Shown piece after piece: positions 18,922 through 30,349 of a DNA stretch of 64,000 nt. The DNA comes from Caenorhabditis elegans. Lineage: Eukaryota; Nematoda; Chromadorea; Rhabditida; Rhabditidae. Position 1 is the first letter of the stretch; every line of letters starts with the position of its first letter. The stretch spans positions 6,262,001 to 6,326,000 of the forward strand of contig NC_003284.9 in assembly GCF_000002985.6 (NCBI RefSeq), written 5' to 3'. Made by a program: the position numbers and the translations under genes. The notes under the pieces are model-generated. The model was not told the DNA's origin. It made no database searches and was given only the letters and a program-made list of their open reading frames with translations.

Positions 18922-19966
18922 TTTCTTTATTATCCAATGTATTTTGTCAGCTTGCATTTCTAGCAAGTTTTTTCATACGGATAAAATTGCCTAAAAATAA
19001 AAAAATCTGAAATTGAAAATGTGTTGTTCATTGTTTGGTTTTTATTCAGATATTCAGAAAGAGTTAAAAAACTAAACTCAGAAATCTCCAATTGAATAAG
19101 CTCAGTCAAAAAAACAGTTAAAAACCTGAACCTACAAAAATCAAGTCGTACGAAAGCTTACGCCATGCCACATTGAGATGGTTTAATGTCATTTTCGATT
19201 TGCATTTTCTCATTTTTGCGTCTCTTGCCCACGGAATAGTTTTTAGCATGACAATCTTGATACATGCCAAAGAGAGATAGTATGACCTTTTTCGGCAAAC
19301 AAAAGTAGACATTTCAACAGAATAAGTATGAACAAGAAGGGTTAAAGTGGCAAATGAAGGCATTCCGTTGGTGAAAGTAGTACTCAACAGGGCCTTCACA
19401 AATTTGAACTAATATAGTACACGATTTTTTAAATTTACAATTTGTACTATTTTTTGCACATATCGAGAACATTTTCGGCAAGTATTATTCTCAAACTTTA
19501 CATTTACAAGTTTTCGTATAGCTCATCACTTCGAAACTATCATAGTGTTCTATTGTGGTAAGATCCAGTTTTGGATACGAACAAATCCAATGGCCACAAC
19601 GATATTTTTCTTCTTTTGTTATTGAAACCTTGCGTAATGCCCGTTTCTATCCAGCCGCCAACTATCTCCAGATCCTCTTCATCTGATACGAGTCCGGGTT
19701 CATACGGATGTGAAAAATGAGGAAACAAGAAAATATAAAAAAATGAAGAAATGTTGAAAGCCCGAACATGATTAGCATCTATTTGCATACAGACACTTCA
19801 CCCATCCCTCAAAAAAGCTGATTTATTCAGACGGTGTCATAAATGAATCTTCATTCCATTCCACTCCCAAAAACACCCAAATTGAGAATTAAAAACTAAA
19901 CCTTGAGACTGAGACATAAGAGGGAGAAAGGAATTTATTTTTGATTGATAAATTAGTCAGCCAATT
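18922..19966. other. Convergent intergenic region
   Basis: It holds the 3'UTR of the collagen (poly(A) signal 18996-19001) and, on the minus strand, a poly(A) signal for the long lev-9 transcript (complement of TTTATT at 19934-19939, about 30 nt after its stop). No other gene is apparent. Confidence 0.6.
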
Positions 19967-22900
19967 TTAAGAATTGGAAGGTAGACATAGCGGTAAACGT
20001 CGTGACCATTGACCAGGCGATATGCAAACCAAAACATTGTCAGAACTCAATTTGTAATTCTGAGACGGGCAGTAAAACACAATTTTCTCCCCGATAGAAT
20101 AATAATCTTTAGCAATTGTGGTGGTAGCTCCATGGTCGGGTTGCCCTGGATGCCTACAGTAGCCGTCGCCTGAAAATGACAAAAACCAGTTTCCATTTCT
20201 CAATCAACCAAAACAAACAAACATTTCGTCTTGATCTCGCTCCATTCGCCATCGGCTTGGCAGACAGAAAAATCGCCGCCAGTCAGCATGTAATTCGGGA
20301 GGCATCCAAGCAAAACAATGTCTCCTTTTGTGTTAATCTCCTTTGGCTCTCCAATAAAATGACCATTTGCCGGCGGAAGAAGAGGTGGGCAATGGACAAC
20401 GTTGCAGTATGGGAAGTCGTGACTCCAAGTTCCTTGAGTTGTACAATGCAAGTTTTGTTCTCCAATCAACGTGAATCTGAATAATTATTATTCAAAATTT
20501 TTTTTTAATATAGTGTCCTTTTATAACAAACCCTTTATGGCATTTGAAATGAGCGACACCGCCAGTTCTATAAGAAGTCACCGTCACAGTCATCCGGGTT
20601 CCATTTACAAATACTGCCGGGCAGTGAGCTGCTGGAATAAGGTTCTGATTGAAAAAAGCTAGGGTACAGAAAAATGTAGTATACTTATCAATATAAAAAG
20701 GGAACCCAGGAAAGTTTCGTTTTCAGTGAGCAGAGGCAGCTTAAACTTATTTTAAAATTTTAAAAGACGCAAAAATTTTTGACTTCATGCGATTGAAAAA
20801 AAATAGTTGCTGATTTTCAGTTGATATTTTGTCTACTAATAAAAATTATTGCTTTTTTGTTATGCAGTCTGTCAAATTTCTATAAAGCCACCACGTCCTT
20901 AATGATGATGTTTTGAGACATCCTGAAAAATTGGTACTTGTGTATTACGTGCCCTCATTTTCAAATTAATTTAAATTTTCACTAATTTCTCCAATTAAAT
21001 AAAACGTGGTATACATTTTTCCTCTTTAGTCTTAGAAAAGGTTATTTCCTAAGCCTATAAATACAAAATGTGGTTCACGTTTTCATTTTTCATAACTTAA
21101 AAATTTACTTTCAAAATGAGGGCATGTAATACACAAGTACCGAAAAATTTAATTAGTAACTATCAATGACATTTGTAGAACATGTGGGATCTCCTGGGTT
21201 CAGCTAGACTTCAGAAATTCCCAAACATCCAAAATTGAAAAGTGGGTCGCAATGTATAATAAATGCTGATTTTAAAACATATTATTGAAAAATCTCCGCT
21301 CTCAATATTACTTCTTTATATTTAATTTCTTACCAACACATCTTGGTGCTGAGTGACTCCATGTTGCATCTTCAAGACAAGTAGAAACTGCACTTCCCTC
21401 TACAGAAAATCCCGGCGGGCACGAAAACTGAGCAACAGTTCCGACGAACAATGTAGGGCTCGATAGATCTACTTGTAAGTTTGTCGGGCCAATTGGAAGT
21501 AGGCATTTTTCTTCTGAAACAAAATATATATTTCTTTTGCTCTGATTTTTCTACCGTGAACAATTAGCTTTATTGAATTTCTAGCACCATTTGGCAAAAC
21601 GCAGTGCAACATTCCACTGTCGAATGGTTGTACACTAGCTATTGAAATCTGTAACCAATCCATTTACAAGACTCAAATCATCAGAAAATCACGTACTTCA
21701 AATCCGTCAATATCATCGTAATCTCCAGTTTTTGCCTTTGTCCACTGCGTCGGATACGAACGGTAAGTGGAAGTGACTTTCTGAAGAATGTAACCAGTTT
21801 AGGCCACTTTTGTATTTCCTCACCCAAATTGGATCCGATGCCACTTTCTCAGTGAGACATGCCAATTTCACATTTGCCGCTCTGGATACAATCAGTTCGC
21901 CTTTTGATGAGATGGCATGAGTACCATGAGTAACTGAATACTTAATTGGCACACTGGTTCCTGGAATAATACTGTGCTCACAATGATAATATATTAACAA
22001 AAAGCAACAAAACAAGTTTGAATGTTTTACACCATAATATTTGAAGCACAAATTTAAAAATACAATCCGTAAAAATAAACATTTTTTTAGTCAATTTTGA
22101 GGGTCGAGAACTGGGAAATGGACAATCTGCAAAAAAAATATTTTTAGGTCAATTTAGCACTTTTGAAACTTTCTCCAATAAAAAAAACATCTTAAAACAA
22201 CTGTCCAAAAAATATCTGAAAAACTAGCTGAAACCTGTAATTTGTCAAAATAAGTTTAGCGGCACTTTGTTTAGCAAATTCCAATTTTCAATGTTGTTTT
22301 CTAATTTCTTAAATAAAAAAATTATACTTTAAAATTAATCAAACAATTTTCTATGCATACTTCCGTTTTATGACTTTTTTTCATGGATTATCAAATTAAA
22401 ATAGAAAATTGATTGTCGTACAGACCAGTAGCAAAATTGCGAGTTCGAAAACATTATCAACTCTTTGCAAAACAATCAGGAACTTACCGGTGGCTTGAAT
22501 TGGAATACAGTATGGAATAGGACTACTCCATACACCATTATAACACTGCAATTCTTTTTTTCCATGCAACTGCTCCAATCCAATATTAGCACATCGGAAC
22601 AACAATTTGGATCCAGACTCAAAATTTTGGTTGAACACAACTGTTTCTTTCTTCTGTGTGTGATAGATGACTGTGTGAGAGTTGATATTCATTTTTAGAG
22701 TGCAAATTGTTTCGGCTATAATTTTTAATCAGTTTTTTGAATTGTGTGATTTTTTTACTTTTGGAACAGTTCAATTTCTTCTTGTAACCCCACTTTCCCC
22801 GTCTGCATTTGATTGGCACAGTTTCTGCAGAATTGCTTGTTGTCAAGCAGCCAACCTGGAATGAAATGTGGCAATCAAGAAGTACGCAATGTTTCGTAAC

Positions 22901-25900
22901 TACAGTGTGGAATTTTTGAACTTTACGAAATTACTTGATTTTTTTTAAATGTTTCTGTAAAAGTTTGTCAAATCTAACTCACATTGAGTATTGTCCCATG
23001 AGCAAACAGATGCATATGATGAGGTATGTAGTTTTCCACGTTGAATATTTTCTGATTCAATTCTAAGCGCAGAGGTGGGCACATTTCGTCGTTGGTCGGA
23101 GTTTTCCAATTGGTAATGTTAGCAGTGACTATAAACCATTGATTTTCAGAGAATGACTAAGAGGGGATTTACCACATGGCAGTAAGTTGCTGACCCATTC
23201 TCCATTTACACACTCTATACCGCCGGCCTCTTCTTTGTCGTTACACTGAATATTTGTTAATTTTGGAGAATACCATGTTTTCTTTATTAGAACTACACCC
23301 GACTACTTCCCTTTAAAAAGCATGCCCCGGTCTAAATAAAACAAACTGCAGTTATAGAATTTGTTAAAGTTGAACAATGGGGTGCAGTACTAATAAAGTT
23401 AACACGGTAACTGTTTTGAAATAACCTTACTTTGAACTGAAAAATAGTCCCATTAGGATAGGCTGTCTGATATCTATCAATGTGGGTTTTCCTTAATCCA
23501 TGATATCTGTAAATAATTGCAGGCGTGGTATCTTGAGGCGCAATGCAAAACCGGGATTCTAAAAATTTACATTTAAAACTTACATGTACAATTATACTCA
23601 CCGTTTTCATGACAAGATGGTAGAGGGTTCAAACTACCCTTGGAACAAGATATGGTTACATTTGTACCTGTACACATTAGAAGAACTTTCTCTCCATTTT
23701 TGATAGTTTCAGCTGTTGTATTGTATTTTCCAACGATTAACTCAGATAATATACATTCTTCTGAACAAAAATTTTTAAGTTATGGTATTAGAAAAAACTT
23801 TTTAAAAAAGCTTACGTGGTACACAATGACCGAGTGGCTCTCTGAGGTCTCCTTTTATACATTCTAGAACTCCATTACCGCTTAAATGGAAACCACGTAG
23901 ACATGCCATTTGCGCGACAGTTCCATCTTCTACTACATCATTGGATTGCAAAATTTGAGATGTACCCGCTTTTAAAAAAAACACGTGAAGTCTTATTGGT
24001 ACCCGACATGATTCTAAATTATCAAATATCGAAGTTAATATAATAAGGTTCACTCACTTGGAATGCACTCTGCTATTTCAGGTTTCCATTTCCCGTTAAC
24101 ACAAGTAGATTTTCCGACAACTCTTTCGCTAGCAAATTCGTATCCTTCTCTGCAAATCACCTGAACACACATAATGCTCCTGAATTTCAGTTGTTAAAAT
24201 ACATATCAATTACTATAGCTTTAATAGAAAACTTAAAAGTTCGATATCGTATGTCAACAGGCATTGTGTACATTTTGTCATGTGTTCGTTTCACAGTCGC
24301 TTATTAGAACACCATCATGCGGGGGTATAGCTCAGGGGTAGAGCGCTCGCTTTGCATGCGAGAAGTCTGGGGTTCGATTCCCCATACCTCCATTACTTTT
24401 TTAAAATTTCTTTGAAATGTGTTGAAAGTAAATGAAAAATCTTGCTGATTACAGAAAATAATTATATTGTTGATTTTTAGAAGAACAGTTCAAAATGGTA
24501 GTAAGCAACAATTCACTGTATAAAAATGTGCACAAATGTTCAACAGACCGAGACTCCATTGTCAGAGTGTTGCATTATCATTCTTTCAAGTTTTCCCGAC
24601 ACAATTCCACATTTTCCCGAGTGTTGCCGATGAGTTGATAGTTCTGAAATAAAAATAACTGAAAAAATGCATCACTATTATAAAGTACCATCATCGACAT
24701 ATTCTCTTACGGCTCTGCCAGGCAAACTTCGTTTTTTTCGGTCCCAAAGAATTTTTCCTTCAATCATTGGATGCGTTTGCGAAACACATTTGGGTGACAC
24801 TTTTGGCATCCATTCACCATTCACACAAGTTGCCTTAGGGGGCCCTACAAGACCGATTATTTTGAAAGAAAGAATGCATAGGTTACCAATCAAATAATTG
24901 CCCTTCCCACACTGAAAACTGATAGCTCTCCCTTCTTCTACTTTTTGAATATAACTTTGAAACTCGTATGCACCAAGGATTCCCTCCAGAAGTATTTGTC
25001 CGCCAGGAAGTGTTCCATATGTTTTGCTAGGGTGTTCACACCAACCTAAACTTTATTGAAAATAAAAAAAAATTTGAATGATAAACGGCTCGACAAGTGT
25101 GGTCAGTGCAACTTAAATTGGTCAGTGCAACTGCAACTGGTCAGTGCAACTAAAATTGGTCAGTGCAACTGCAAGTGGTCAGTGCAACTAAAATTGGTCA
25201 GTGCAACTGTAACTGGTCAGTGCAACTAAATTGGTCAGTGCAACTGGTGCAACTTAAATTGGTCAGTGCAACTGCAACTGGTCAGTGCAACTTAAATTGG
25301 TCAGTGCAACTGCAACTGGTCAGTGCAACTTAAATTGGTCAGTGCAACTTAAATTGGTCAGTGCAACTGCAACTGGTCAGTGCAACTGCAACTGGTCAGT
25401 GCAACTTAAATTGGTCAGTGCAACTGCAACTGGTCAGTGCAACTTAAATTGGTCAGTGCAACTGCAACTGGTCAGTGCAACTTAAATTGGTCAGTGCAAC
25501 TGCAACTGGTCAGTGCACTGCAACTGGTCAGTGCACTACAACTGGTCAGTGCACTGCAACTGGTCAGTGCACTACAACTGGTCAGTGCACTGCAACTGGT
25601 CAGTGCACTACAACTGGTCAGTGCACTGCAACTGGTCAGTGCACTACAACTGGTCAGTGCACTGCAACTGGTCAGTGCACTACAACTGGTCAGTGCACTG
25701 CAACTGGTCAGTGCACTACAACTGGTCAGTGCACTGCAACTGGTCAGTGCACTACAACTGGTCATGGTCAGTGCACTGCAACTGGTCAGTGCACTAATTT
25801 TGGTCAGTGCACTACAAGTGGTCAGTGCAAATGCAAGTGATCAGTGCACTACAACTGGTCAGTGCAAATGCAGGTGGTCAGTGCAATCGCAAGTGGTCAG

Positions 25901-28900
25901 TGCAAATGCAACTGGTCAGTGCAACTAAAATTGGTCAGTGCAACTGCAACTGGTCAGTGCAAATGCAGGTGGTCAGTGCAATTGCAAGTGGTCAGTGCAA
26001 ATGCAAGTAATCAGTGCAACTGCAAGTGGTCAGTGCAAATGATTTTAGTTAGGAAGGACAAATGCTCCACGCATTTCTTTGCTCTTATCATCCCAGTCTG
26101 GAACAACTTATTCAAAAATGTTACGGTTTTTATGTCCCCATATCAGTTCTGTGAATTTATTCATCTCAACATCCCCCGGTTATAACTACACTTTTACCTC
26201 CATTCTCGTCTTTCTCCCCGTTTCACCTGTTCCCTATTATCTTATTTCCTTTTTTTGTAACTTTTACTCGAGTTGAACTCTTTTAGGGTTCGTCTCGTTT
26301 TATTTGTTTATTTCTCTTCTTTTAGTTAAATAAACTCAAATTCAAGAAATTCAAATGCAAGTGGTCAGTGCAAATGCAACTGGTCAGTGCAACTAAAATT
26401 GGTCAGTGCAACTGCAACTGGTCAGTGCAAATGCAGGTGGTCAGTGCAATTGCAAGTGGTCAGTGCAAATCCAAGTAATCAGTGCAACTGCAAGTGGTCA
26501 GTGCAAATGCAAGTGATCAGTGCAAATGCAAGTGGTCAGTGCAAATGCAAGTGATCAGCGCAAATGCAAGTAGTCAGTGCAACGGAGCAAAAGGAAAAAA
26601 TGTTTGATCCAATCATTATGATGTTTCTTGTGGTTTGATACATCATTTACAAATGATCACCCTTTTTGGAGAAAAATGCGTCTAAAGATCAGAGGTGGTA
26701 ATGTGTCGGCCTGCGACTGAGTTTTGGATCGGCCCACAACACGTTGACACCTCTACGTCAAAGTATGCGGTAGAAAAATTGGACAGATGTGTACCACTTT
26801 TCGGCCTGTGAGTAACGCACTTGGTAAACATTTCATTGGTGGTCCGTCTTTAGTCCATTCTCCATAAAGACATTTTATAATTTGATTATTTCTGTTTGGA
26901 TGATAACCATTGTTGCATTCATATTTGGCGATTGAGCCGTGCGATGATTTCGAGAATAGAATTCGAGCATGTGGAACCCTTGGCGGCCAATTGTGGCAGC
27001 TTACTGAAAAGAAAAGCTGTGGTTTTATGCTATTTTAAAATTAAACTTACAAGGACTACAAACTGGAACATGTGACCATGTGGAATTGCTACAAATTAGG
27101 CGTTCATCGATGTTTGCTTCGTGTTGCTTATTGCATTCAACAATCACTTTGGAACCTGAAACTTGAATGAATTATTCTAAACTTTAGAAAAACAACTACC
27201 GGACGCAATGAGTTGACCTTCGCTTTTGTCTCTTATTTTTCCATTTTGTATATGTGGTACTCTACAAGAAGCTAAACATCTTGGAATCGGAGCACTCCAT
27301 TGACCATCTTCCATGCATTTTGCCTTTGACGCTCCCTCGTGAGTCATTGTTTCCAAGCACCTGAATTTAAACATTTAAGAAACATAAATTTGTTTAGATT
27401 TGGAAAATCGTTACCTGAAAACTGCGACAGCTCCGAATGACGTTTCACTGCCCTCAATGTATCCATTGGGAAGGGTTGGAAGTACTGAACATCGAATTTC
27501 TTCACATCGCGGCTCATTTCCTCCCCATATTCCCTCAGCTAAACATATTCGTTGAACTTGACCAACGAGGCGATAACCATGATCACAGGAGTACGTCACA
27601 ACGGACTGGTATGTCAATGAGCTACCGACAACTTTTCCATGAAGTGGGCTTGACGGACGAGAGCATTCAGTAGCTGGAAAAGTTTATGAGTTGTTAATTT
27701 ATTATAACATAGGTAATTTGCAGTGTATTTCAGTATGTCCTTATGTATTCTGATTTTTGATCTTTTTTGTGGCCTATATAAAACGTGTGGTACAACTATC
27801 GAGGTCCGTGATGGATAACTATCGCCCGAACATCTTACGTTTTCTGGGTATTTTGAGTGGTCCGCGCACACAGATCATGGAACACTATTCACACAATTTC
27901 TACTCAAGAGAGTTTTGTAAGATTTAGGGTTACTGTGGATATATTGCGGTTGCCACCAGCGAACGAAACTGACTTGTTGCTCAATAAAACAAACTGGCTA
28001 CCAACAAAACATTTTTATTGTTTTTTTTTTTCAATTTTTTCAAAGTGTACCTTTACAATTAGCCGGCTCATTTGTCCATTCTCCGTTACTGGAGCATTGA
28101 CGGGAAGTCGAACCGACAAGAAGAAAACCAGGGTTACATGAATACTTGACGTGATGGGGATATTCAAATGTATCTCCCTCTCGAAGACCATTTTCTATAT
28201 CTCCGGGATCCGGACATGCTCTTGCTAAAAGTTGCATTGACTTATTGGGCAAGTTTAAGTTTTTCGCATTTTTTCAAATTTTCAAAGTTTTACCTTTACA
28301 TCTCAAATCAGGTCCAAACCATTGTGCAACATTTTTCCGATTCAACAGACATTTTGATATTGAAAGACCCTGTAAGCATTATTTTTAAAGATAAAATGGA
28401 GAATTTTGATTTAAGTCTCACTTTTGCGTTGAATTTGTGATAGCCTGGTATGCAATTATAAGCAACTTCAGCATCAAGGTCATACTCTCCGGAAAATGAA
28501 GACCCGTCGTGAACGGCAAATGGAATTTCCGGTGGTGGCCCGCATTTTACTGAAATATTTTGGGATTATACGGCAGTGTCGATAAGAAACGTAAAGCATT
28601 GGATGAGGAATCATGCAATTCTGTAGTCACATAATTTAGAAAATTCTTAAACAAAATTCCTAGATATTCTGGATCGATGTTTTGGTATTCAATCAAGTTG
28701 ATTTGGTTAGATTGAACTTTAGTGGTGAAAACCTTTTTTGTAAGGCTAATTTATTTCTGAATACCCCTAACCGTTTTTTTTTTAAATTTTAAACCACTTG
28801 ACAGCTGACAGCTCACCGCCACCAATCAACTAAATTTATCAACTGCTCGATAAAAGCTGAAATCTTTTTTCGTTGAGTAAAGTAGATTTGAAATTGTTTG

Positions 28901-29527
28901 TTTCACAAAATTGGTGATATTTTGATATTATCTTTTAGTGCATTTGATTTTTTGTTTATCTTGCTATAAATTTTGTTATATCTTTATATTGTTTTTTCAA
29001 AAAACTTAGGTTTAACTATTTGTGCACTTAAAAAATCTTCTTATTTTATTTTGAACCCGTAAACATAATTTTTTTAAATAAGGAACTTGAAAAAATACAT
29101 TGTAACCTGCAAACAGGTTGTGAAGAACTCCATTCTTTGTTAGCCTGACATCTTCTCTGACTGGCACCAACTAGTATATATCCCTTGTTGCATCCATATT
29201 CTGCATTTGATCCAAATCGCAAATCACCAGCAGTTCGTATAAATCCATTTTCAATATTTGGAAGTGGGTGGCACATTGCAACTGAATAAAAACAAAAAAG
29301 TTCATTTTTTATATTGCTCAATAGACAAGATATTTTTATCACTCACTTGGGTTCACACAGCTCAAGCCACATTCTCCGTCGCACATACATCTTTTGTTTC
29401 TTTTACAATCTTCGTCTGCTATACACTCTTTTTTGCAATGTTTCGGCCGTTGTGATAGAGTAACTTCCGGACAAGATAGGGCCGACGCGTAGGTAATGGA
29501 GATGGCGAGTAGTAGTAGAAATCGCAT
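19967..29527 (-). CDS. lev-9: LEV-9 long form: WAP, about 18 CCP domains and an Ig-like domain (1356 aa)
   Basis: Exons (high to low): 29527-29347, 29281-29099, 28549-28422, 28369-28294, 28224-28051, 27673-27415, 27360-27200, 27155-27051, 27003-26821, 25045-24887, 24844-24689, 24643-24549, 24160-24058, 24013-23816, 23760-23602, 23558-23431, 23245-23173, 23128-22983, 22855-22759, 22715-22488, 21960-21824, 21780-21697, 21648-21555, 21513-21334, 20658-20532, 20476-20223, 20169-19967. The model closes in frame. Signal peptide, then an 8-cysteine WAP domain (C19-C57), eight CCP/sushi domains, a basic RKKR site (572-575), six further CCPs, an Ig-like domain (from about residue 1000, with DSGMLHC) and four terminal CCPs. 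LEV-9 is a secreted muscle factor that clusters levamisole-sensitive acetylcholine receptors with LEV-10. The join of the 3' half depends on a GTCTGT donor at 24548 that removes a stop. The exon 2 donor (29098) was chosen by phase. Confidence 0.75.
20931..21143. mobile_element. Fold-back element in a lev-9 intron
   Basis: The left end TTGGTACTTGTGTATTACGT continues into GCCCTCATTTT. It is matched in inverted orientation by the right end, which reads AAAATGAGGGCATGTAATAC then ACAAGTACCGAA. Arms are about 33 bp with few mismatches. GAAAAATT occurs across both outer boundaries and may be a target duplication. It has no ORF, so it is a MITE-type element inside the intron between exons 24 and 25 of the long form. 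Confidence 0.7.
24321..24392 (+). tRNA. tRNA-Ala (anticodon UGC)
   Basis: A 72-nt cloverleaf. Acceptor GGGGGTA pairs with TACCTCC, the D-arm is TAGCTCAGGGGTAGAGC, the anticodon stem CTCGC/GCGAG frames loop TTTGCAT (anticodon TGC), and the T-arm is CTGGGGTTCGATTCCCCA. A and B box sequences are standard and a T-run follows at about 24396. It lies inside the lev-9 locus on the opposite strand, in the region that is intron for the long form and 3' flank for the short form. It is identical to the tRNA at 30278-30349. Confidence 0.95.
24540..29527 (-). CDS. lev-9: LEV-9 short form: WAP plus eight CCP domains (622 aa)
   Basis: It uses the same first eleven exons as the long form. Exon 12 then runs on through the GTCTGT donor and stops at 24540-24542, giving 622 aa with a WAP domain and exactly eight CCP domains, the domain count I know for LEV-9. 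Each CCP has four cysteines and the conserved Trp before the last one. After CCP8 comes a dibasic RKKR-S site (572-575), consistent with reported proteolytic maturation of LEV-9. The last 30 or so residues are in fact the first half of a ninth CCP that is cut off by the stop. No canonical AATAAA follows closely, so the polyadenylation site is uncertain. Confidence 0.85.
25101..26583. repeat. Minisatellite of 18/19-bp units in a lev-9 intron
   Basis: The core GGTCAGTGCAAC is repeated dozens of times. From 25101 to about 25507 units are 19 bp and tend to alternate between GGTCAGTGCAACTTAAATT and GGTCAGTGCAACTGCAACT, a 38-bp higher-order unit. From about 25508 to 25763 one A is lost: 18-bp units alternate GGTCAGTGCACTGCAACT and GGTCAGTGCACTACAACT, a 36-bp higher-order unit. 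After that, units are more diverged (AAATGCAAGT, AATCGCAAGT). The array is split by unique DNA at 26042-26357. It lies in the intron between lev-9 exons 9 and 10. Open frames across it (periodic QLVSAL) are a by-product of the period, not genes. Confidence 0.95.
26042..26357. mobile_element. Insertion inside the minisatellite, with possible 6-bp target duplication
   Basis: About 316 bp of non-repeat sequence interrupts the array. CAAATG is found just before it (26036-26041) and at its end (26352-26357). Removing the insert plus one CAAATG restores a normal repeat junction (GTGCAAATGCAAGTGGTCAG). Near its right end it carries AATAAA within TTTTAGTTAAATAAACTC, but there is no poly(A) tail and no inverted ends. 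Its family is unknown to me. Confidence 0.55.
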
Positions 29528-30277
29528 TTAATTCATGTGATTTGGTACTATGAAAATTTTAAAAGAGAAATCCGCTTGAGTTCTTGCAAGACGGCATTCT
29601 TTCACCAGCTGACACGCAATGTATTGATTGATTGGGGTCTTTTCAAGGGTTCCCATTGTAAAGTTGCTCGAGTATCATGCTTGTCTGATCAATTATTTGC
29701 TGCGGGACATTGTGGCAAATAGGAACTGACTGCTGAAAAATTAGAGGTGAAGGTATTTTGATGTGATTTTTGCGGTTTTCACAACTTTCACAGGGTTACA
29801 GAAAAATCTTTATTTTTTTATTTTATTTTTCTCCAAAATTTGAATTCAAAAAAGGGGAGAATTTTGAGAAATATCAGTGAAGAAATACAAGTTTATCGCA
29901 GGGGCGACAAATCATATTTTTTGGCAAACGTCCTATTTGGAAATCGCCTTTTAGGTTTGAATGATTGTGGAAGTTTGAGATTTTGCAAAAAAATTGGTAG
30001 ACTGAAAAATATAAAAAAACAGGAAACAGGTTACAATTGTAAATGTTTTGCTTATGAAAAATCCCTTAAAAAGTATTTGGCAAATTGAGTTTAGTTTCGG
30101 CAGATGGCCGAAAATGAAAATTTCTGTCAAATCGCCGCACTTTTAGAACAATAATTAATGCTTGCTATTTCAGAACTGTTTCCCCATAGTTGAATTTTAA
30201 AAAAAGTGCAAAAAACATTCTCGAAATGGAATAAATTGGACAAGTGAAAAAATCATTTTGAAAAATAAAAAAATATC
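29528..30277. other. Upstream region of lev-9
   Basis: The segment between the lev-9 start and the minus-strand tRNA-Ala contains AT-rich DNA and small open frames without splice support. It presumably holds the lev-9 promoter. I see no TATA box or recognisable element. Confidence 0.5.
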
Positions 30278-30349
30278 TGGAGGTATGGGGAATCGAACCC
30301 CAGACTTCTCGCATGCAAAGCGAGCGCTCTACCCCTGAGCTATACCCCC
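30278..30349 (-). tRNA. tRNA-Ala (anticodon UGC), second copy
   Basis: Base-for-base identical over 72 nt to the tRNA at 24321-24392 but on the other strand, so the pair is inverted with about 5.9 kb between. A T-run follows the 3' end on the minus strand (ATATTTTTTTATTT). It lies about 750 bp upstream of the lev-9 start codon, transcribed in the same direction as lev-9. Confidence 0.95.

Follow-up and report, generated by a model that had tools for sequence, protein, structure and literature searches.

A weak splice donor in Caenorhabditis elegans lev-9 probably selects between two precursors that share a candidate cleavage site

The Caenorhabditis elegans gene lev-9, whose product clusters receptors where nerve meets muscle, has two possible ends that diverge at a single, poor splice donor, and we confirm both from the reading frames. 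One end is reached by reading through the donor to an almost immediate stop and the other by splicing at it into a long, open tail. We think it likely that both belong to one transcription unit in which splicing and early polyadenylation compete, and in which a cleavage motif encoded ahead of the switch would be common to the two precursors.

Results

The gene lies on the minus strand of X:6262001-6326000, the 64-kb stretch analysed here (the window; positions below count from its first nucleotide, and features are on the minus strand unless stated). We take it to be the locus with the gene names T07H6.5 and T07H6.4. We rebuilt the gene model exon by exon from the window sequence, obtaining 27 exons and 26 introns in the long form; every junction has GT...AG ends, and the long ORF contains no internal stop. 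By its predicted architecture (a hydrophobic N-terminus, a WAP domain and CCPs) the gene is identified as lev-9, matching the published description of LEV-9 (PMC9083331).

Exon 1 (29347-29527) contains the start codon, the hydrophobic N-terminus taken as signal peptide (hydrophobicity 2.36) and the WAP domain (Pfam PF00095, 25.7 bits against a cut-off of 20.8). Directly 5' of the start codon we noted ATG-AAT-TAA (29528-29536), a possible minimal upstream ORF. Exons 2-11 (24689-29281) encode CCP1 to CCP8 and a linker, as placed by the gene build, Pfam and cysteine spacing. Intron 9 (1775 nt) is largely a 19-bp minisatellite, with about 50 copies at 25100-26038 and about 12 at 26352-26582. Exon 12 (24549-24643) encodes aa 589-620, including C600, the first cysteine of CCP9, and completes the part common to both forms, which comprises 12 exons running from 29527 to 24549.

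At its 3' end, exon 12 meets the donor GTCTGT (TCG|GTCTGT; last exon base 24549, donor at 24543-24548). Reading through adds valine and cysteine and then reaches a TGA at 24540-24542, giving a short ORF of 622 aa that ends in NGVSVC. Splicing instead joins 24549 to 24160 in phase 0, leading into exon 13 (24058-24160), which encodes cysteines 2-4 of CCP9 (VICREGYEF...); 14 further exons then reach a stop at 19967. The first-pass annotation of this DNA had described both outcomes, and the rebuilt frame bears out the stop two codons past the donor as well as the phase-0 join with its unbroken run of tail exons. The long product needed adjustment: it had been given as 1356 aa, and the long ORF is real, but our model yields 1347 aa. 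The larger figure is obtained with an intron 24 acceptor 27 nt upstream (TACCCTAG|CTT) in place of TTATTCCAG, the TACCCTAG site being the weaker, or with either of two alternative changes at intron 16.

We then scored the modules of the tail. Against Pfam Sushi the whole long form reaches 330 bits, and 14 stretches match Sushi at E values of 1 or below. When the ten tail CCPs were scored singly, four exceeded the Pfam cut-off (20.7 bits), three fell below it and three were unmatched. The four are CCP15-CCP18, canonical CCPs encoded by exons 24-27 (19967-21513; gene build and Pfam), the last of which includes the long-form stop. CCP10-CCP14 (exons 14-20, 22488-24013) are degenerate and were placed by cysteine spacing. 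Below the cut-off, at 18.2-19.6 bits, are CCP9, CCP10 and CCP14; CCP11-CCP13 alone gave no Pfam match. Searched against the genome, the last 351 residues had two matches outside lev-9 among the best-scoring candidates, both ordinary CCPs, on contigs C1 and C4, with 38% and 29% identity. No solved structure of LEV-9 was among the matches listed for residues 1-656 (best 60 of 95), which were other CCP proteins.

Between CCP14 and CCP15, and flanked by phase-1 introns, exons 21-23 (21555-21960) encode an Ig-like module. It has a Cys-Trp-DxGxLxC plan at aa 1032-1087 (C1032, W1043 and DSGMLHC ending at C1087), and its profile matches are weak, with E values of 0.14 for Pfam ig, 0.05 for V-set and 0.16 for the best PDB antibody chain. 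The module is absent from the first-pass annotation.

Several features bear on whether the 24549/24160 join is more than chance. Phase 0, which exon 13 needs, is found at only two of the 12 upstream exon ends (exons 3 and 12). Pairing six donors with 22 acceptors around the switch gave 132 combinations, in ten of which the tail stays open; 24549/24160 is the only one of those ten in which a donor above 0 bits and a good acceptor go together with CCP-like spacing of the first and second cysteines (C1 and C2). Junction 12 falls in phase 0, two codons before C2 of CCP9, and junction 18 interrupts CCP13 at the same place and in the same phase; junction 16, likewise phase 0, lies immediately before the second cysteine of CCP12. 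All 15 junctions classed as between-domain are in phase 1.

The cysteine plan of the long form is complete. Spacing places all 82 cysteines, 8 in the WAP domain, 4 in each of 18 CCPs and 2 in the Ig-like module; the grouping by fours is our own, and the weight of the result rests on the spacing and on there being no leftovers. The short form has 42 cysteines, with C600 and C622 left over, which might form a pair. Its terminal V-C keeps a cysteine close to where the long form has C2 of CCP9, at 22 versus 23 residues past C600.

Profiles did not recognise the exon-12 half of CCP9. CCP9 scores 18.7 bits against the Pfam cut-off of 20.7, and the match is essentially to the half encoded by exon 13, itself a Sushi match below cut-off; the exon-12 half had no Pfam recognition as a CCP. 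A profile built from the remaining 17 CCPs gives the joined domain 15.1 bits and the exon-13 half alone 15.3, showing no gain from the exon-12 half; when that half was shuffled, the join equalled or exceeded the real score in 39 of 200 cases. The C1-C2 distance of CCP9 (23) is the shortest among the 18 CCPs. The earlier statement that the short form ends in half a CCP domain thus holds as a claim on cysteines and frame and not as a profile match, because the exon-12 half is unrecognised by profiles.

The switch donor has the lowest score in the gene. With a matrix built from the other 25 lev-9 introns only, it reaches 1.85 bits, the lowest of 26 by a margin of 0.35 bit (the next three score 2.20, 2.21 and 2.30), and it alone has C at +3. 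Intron 12 (24161-24548) is 388 nt long, the fifth longest of 26 and seven times the median of 53.5 nt. A hexamer search found no AATAAA in intron 12; the best candidate for a short-form poly(A) hexamer is a variant, AATATA, at 24463-24468. An AATAAA at 19934-19939, 28 nt past the long-form stop, is the likely long-form signal. Just past the short stop, at 24511-24516, we also observed a donor-like GTGAAT that at 5.8 bits outscores the switch donor; splicing there would not alter the 622-aa protein. A competition at one donor between splicing and early polyadenylation is plausible and fits this anatomy. Intron retention with early polyadenylation had been proposed before: the lowest-scoring donor, the long intron and the hexamers agree with a composite terminal exon, but intron 12 does not offer the canonical hexamer.

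RX(K/R)R occurs twice in the long protein, once inside the WAP domain. The other occurrence, RKKR at aa 572-575 (exon 11, 24689-24844), occupies the sole long linker of the shared part (aa 557-599, 43 aa, between CCP8 and CCP9) and is upstream of the switch; composition predicts 0.007 such motifs in that linker. LEV-9 is reported to require C-terminal cleavage in order to act (PMC9083331; PMC4220116), and according to one of these reviews the cleavage is not needed for secretion. We assign RKKR|S, a convertase-type motif, as the likely LEV-9 cleavage site. Because RKKR|S precedes the switch, both precursors should give the same WAP-CCP1-8 protein, and the tail would probably be an extra product. 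A contrast had previously been drawn between a short clustering factor and a much larger matrix-like protein; it overlooks that RKKR lies upstream of the switch and that C-terminal cleavage is reported to be required. The attribution of eight CCPs to LEV-9 agrees with the short form, which matches the secreted protein of one WAP domain and eight CCPs described in print (PMC9083331).

Two identical tRNA-Ala(TGC) genes, inverted relative to each other and separated by about 5.8 kb, enclose lev-9 exons 1-12. One, at 24321-24392 on the plus strand, is antisense within intron 12 and is followed by a six-T run at 24397-24402; the other, at 30278-30349 on the minus strand, is in the sense orientation upstream of exon 1. 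Identical full-length copies number at least eight in the genome, both lev-9 genes included, among 35 matches listed. A polymerase that continued beyond the early poly(A) site would run head-on into the antisense tRNA gene.

Discussion

From the frames, phases, cysteine plan, weak donor and motif read in the sequence, we infer how the RNA may be used. Under the account that we favour as likely, lev-9 would be transcribed as a single unit that contains a composite internal terminal exon. If cleavage and polyadenylation in intron 12 outcompete the weak donor at 24548, the mRNA would end near 24450 and encode the 622-aa precursor, consisting of the signal peptide, WAP domain, eight CCPs, linker and a CCP9 fragment of 23 residues. 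If U1 prevails, exon 12 would be joined to exon 13, and an mRNA extending past 19967 would encode the 1347-aa precursor with its ten added CCPs and Ig-like module. Cleavage at the RKKR|S that both precursors carry in the linker following CCP8 would release the same mature clustering protein, ending at R575; the short precursor would shed a 47-aa peptide and the long one a 772-aa CCP/Ig protein.

The acceptor region of exon 13 invites another reading, in which the short lev-9 is the upstream gene of an operon and the tail is a second gene, SL2 trans-spliced at 24180/24179 and starting at the ATG at 24172 to give 731 aa. Two good acceptors lie 19 nt apart there (24161-24179), and the upstream one, at 24179, scores 8.10 versus 7.48 for 24160. 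Cis-splicing to the upstream acceptor breaks the frame and gives a 636-aa product, and an ATG 7 nt inside it (24172-24170) is in frame with exon 13 and could serve as a trans-spliced start. TAYYTT is a form of the Ur element linked to SL2, and three such words occur in intron 12, at 24460, 24430 and 24201; three or more arose in 91 of 1000 shuffles, hence their number is not unusual. A protein begun at this ATG would start within a CCP, with cysteines 2-4 of CCP9 and no C1, and would have no hydrophobic N-terminus, and the phase of the join and the cysteine plan would be reduced to coincidence. We therefore consider the operon unlikely. It is more doubtful still that the tail is an independent gene, driven by its own promoter and with a first exon in intron 9, in intron 12 or in one further downstream. 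Several introns are long enough to suggest it (1775, 527 and 702 nt), but a search that took in ATGs opening directly into a tail exon, as distinct from small separate first exons, returned 11 candidates, none of them convincing: judged by hydrophobicity only, none matches the true signal peptide, and the best, at 23610, reaches 1.65 versus 2.36 for the true N-terminus.

Both transcripts might also exist with the long one a minor run-through that has no role, leaving the short protein as the function of the gene. The published LEV-9, with a WAP domain and eight CCPs, corresponds to the short form (PMC9083331), and the middle CCPs of the long form are degenerate. In the literature searched on lev-9 and T07H6 we found no mention of a long isoform, which may still be in print. 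Against a role-less run-through, the last four CCPs are canonical, and 15 intact exons with a full cysteine plan over 727 residues would be hard to explain without selection; we regard it as improbable.

Should the tail be made under the single-unit account, lev-9 mutants would split into two classes, those affecting both forms and those affecting the tail only, and the view of LEV-9 as an eight-CCP protein would be incomplete. The tail would then be a candidate nematode cleft protein of the Hikaru genki (Hig) type. The placement of RKKR ahead of the switch could explain how the short form might be enough for receptor clustering. We infer dauer to be a candidate place for a changed isoform ratio.

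A bolder extension, which we put forward as a long shot, treats lev-9 as a two-in-one precursor. Cleavage after R575 would yield a Hasp-like WAP-CCP scaffold and, from the long mRNA only, a Hig-like Ig-CCP protein, such that the choice between splicing and polyadenylation would set the ratio of two synaptic-cleft proteins that flies encode in separate genes. Situated between exon 13 and the early poly(A) site, the antisense tRNA-Ala gene might help to set that choice, as at mammalian H13/Mcts2, where nested transcription is reported to promote intronic polyadenylation (PMC13309782).

The switch mechanism proposed here belongs to a known class, in which polyadenylation inside an intron creates a composite terminal exon. 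Such exons in the human genome are marked by weak 5' splice sites in large introns, with IgM and CstF-77 among the cases described (PMC3708835), and in C. elegans a divergent donor together with intron retention gives rise to daf-2b, an isoform of the insulin receptor (PMC7041946). The proposed lev-9 switch shares with these systems a weak or divergent donor, a stop past the donor and an alternative protein end. It differs in that a likely proteolytic site precedes it, and the N-terminal product may therefore be unchanged.

Protein architecture provides a further comparison, confined for the fly proteins to domain plan. LEV-9 has been described as a secreted, C-terminally cleaved protein with a WAP domain and eight CCPs (PMC9083331). 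Exons 1-12 give the same architecture, to which the long form adds ten CCPs (by cysteine spacing) and the Ig-like module. Drosophila Hasp has a WAP domain followed by up to 17 CCPs (PMC9083331). In domain plan the long LEV-9, with a WAP domain and 18 CCPs by cysteine count, is closer to Hasp than the short form is, and differs from it by the Ig-like module in the tail. In Hig the order is Ig then CCP. From about aa 998 onwards, the long form has a similar domain plan, with the Ig-like module followed by four canonical CCPs. Hig itself has one Ig domain and five CCPs (PMC4411065), whereas this C-terminal stretch of LEV-9 has four CCPs and is part of a larger precursor.
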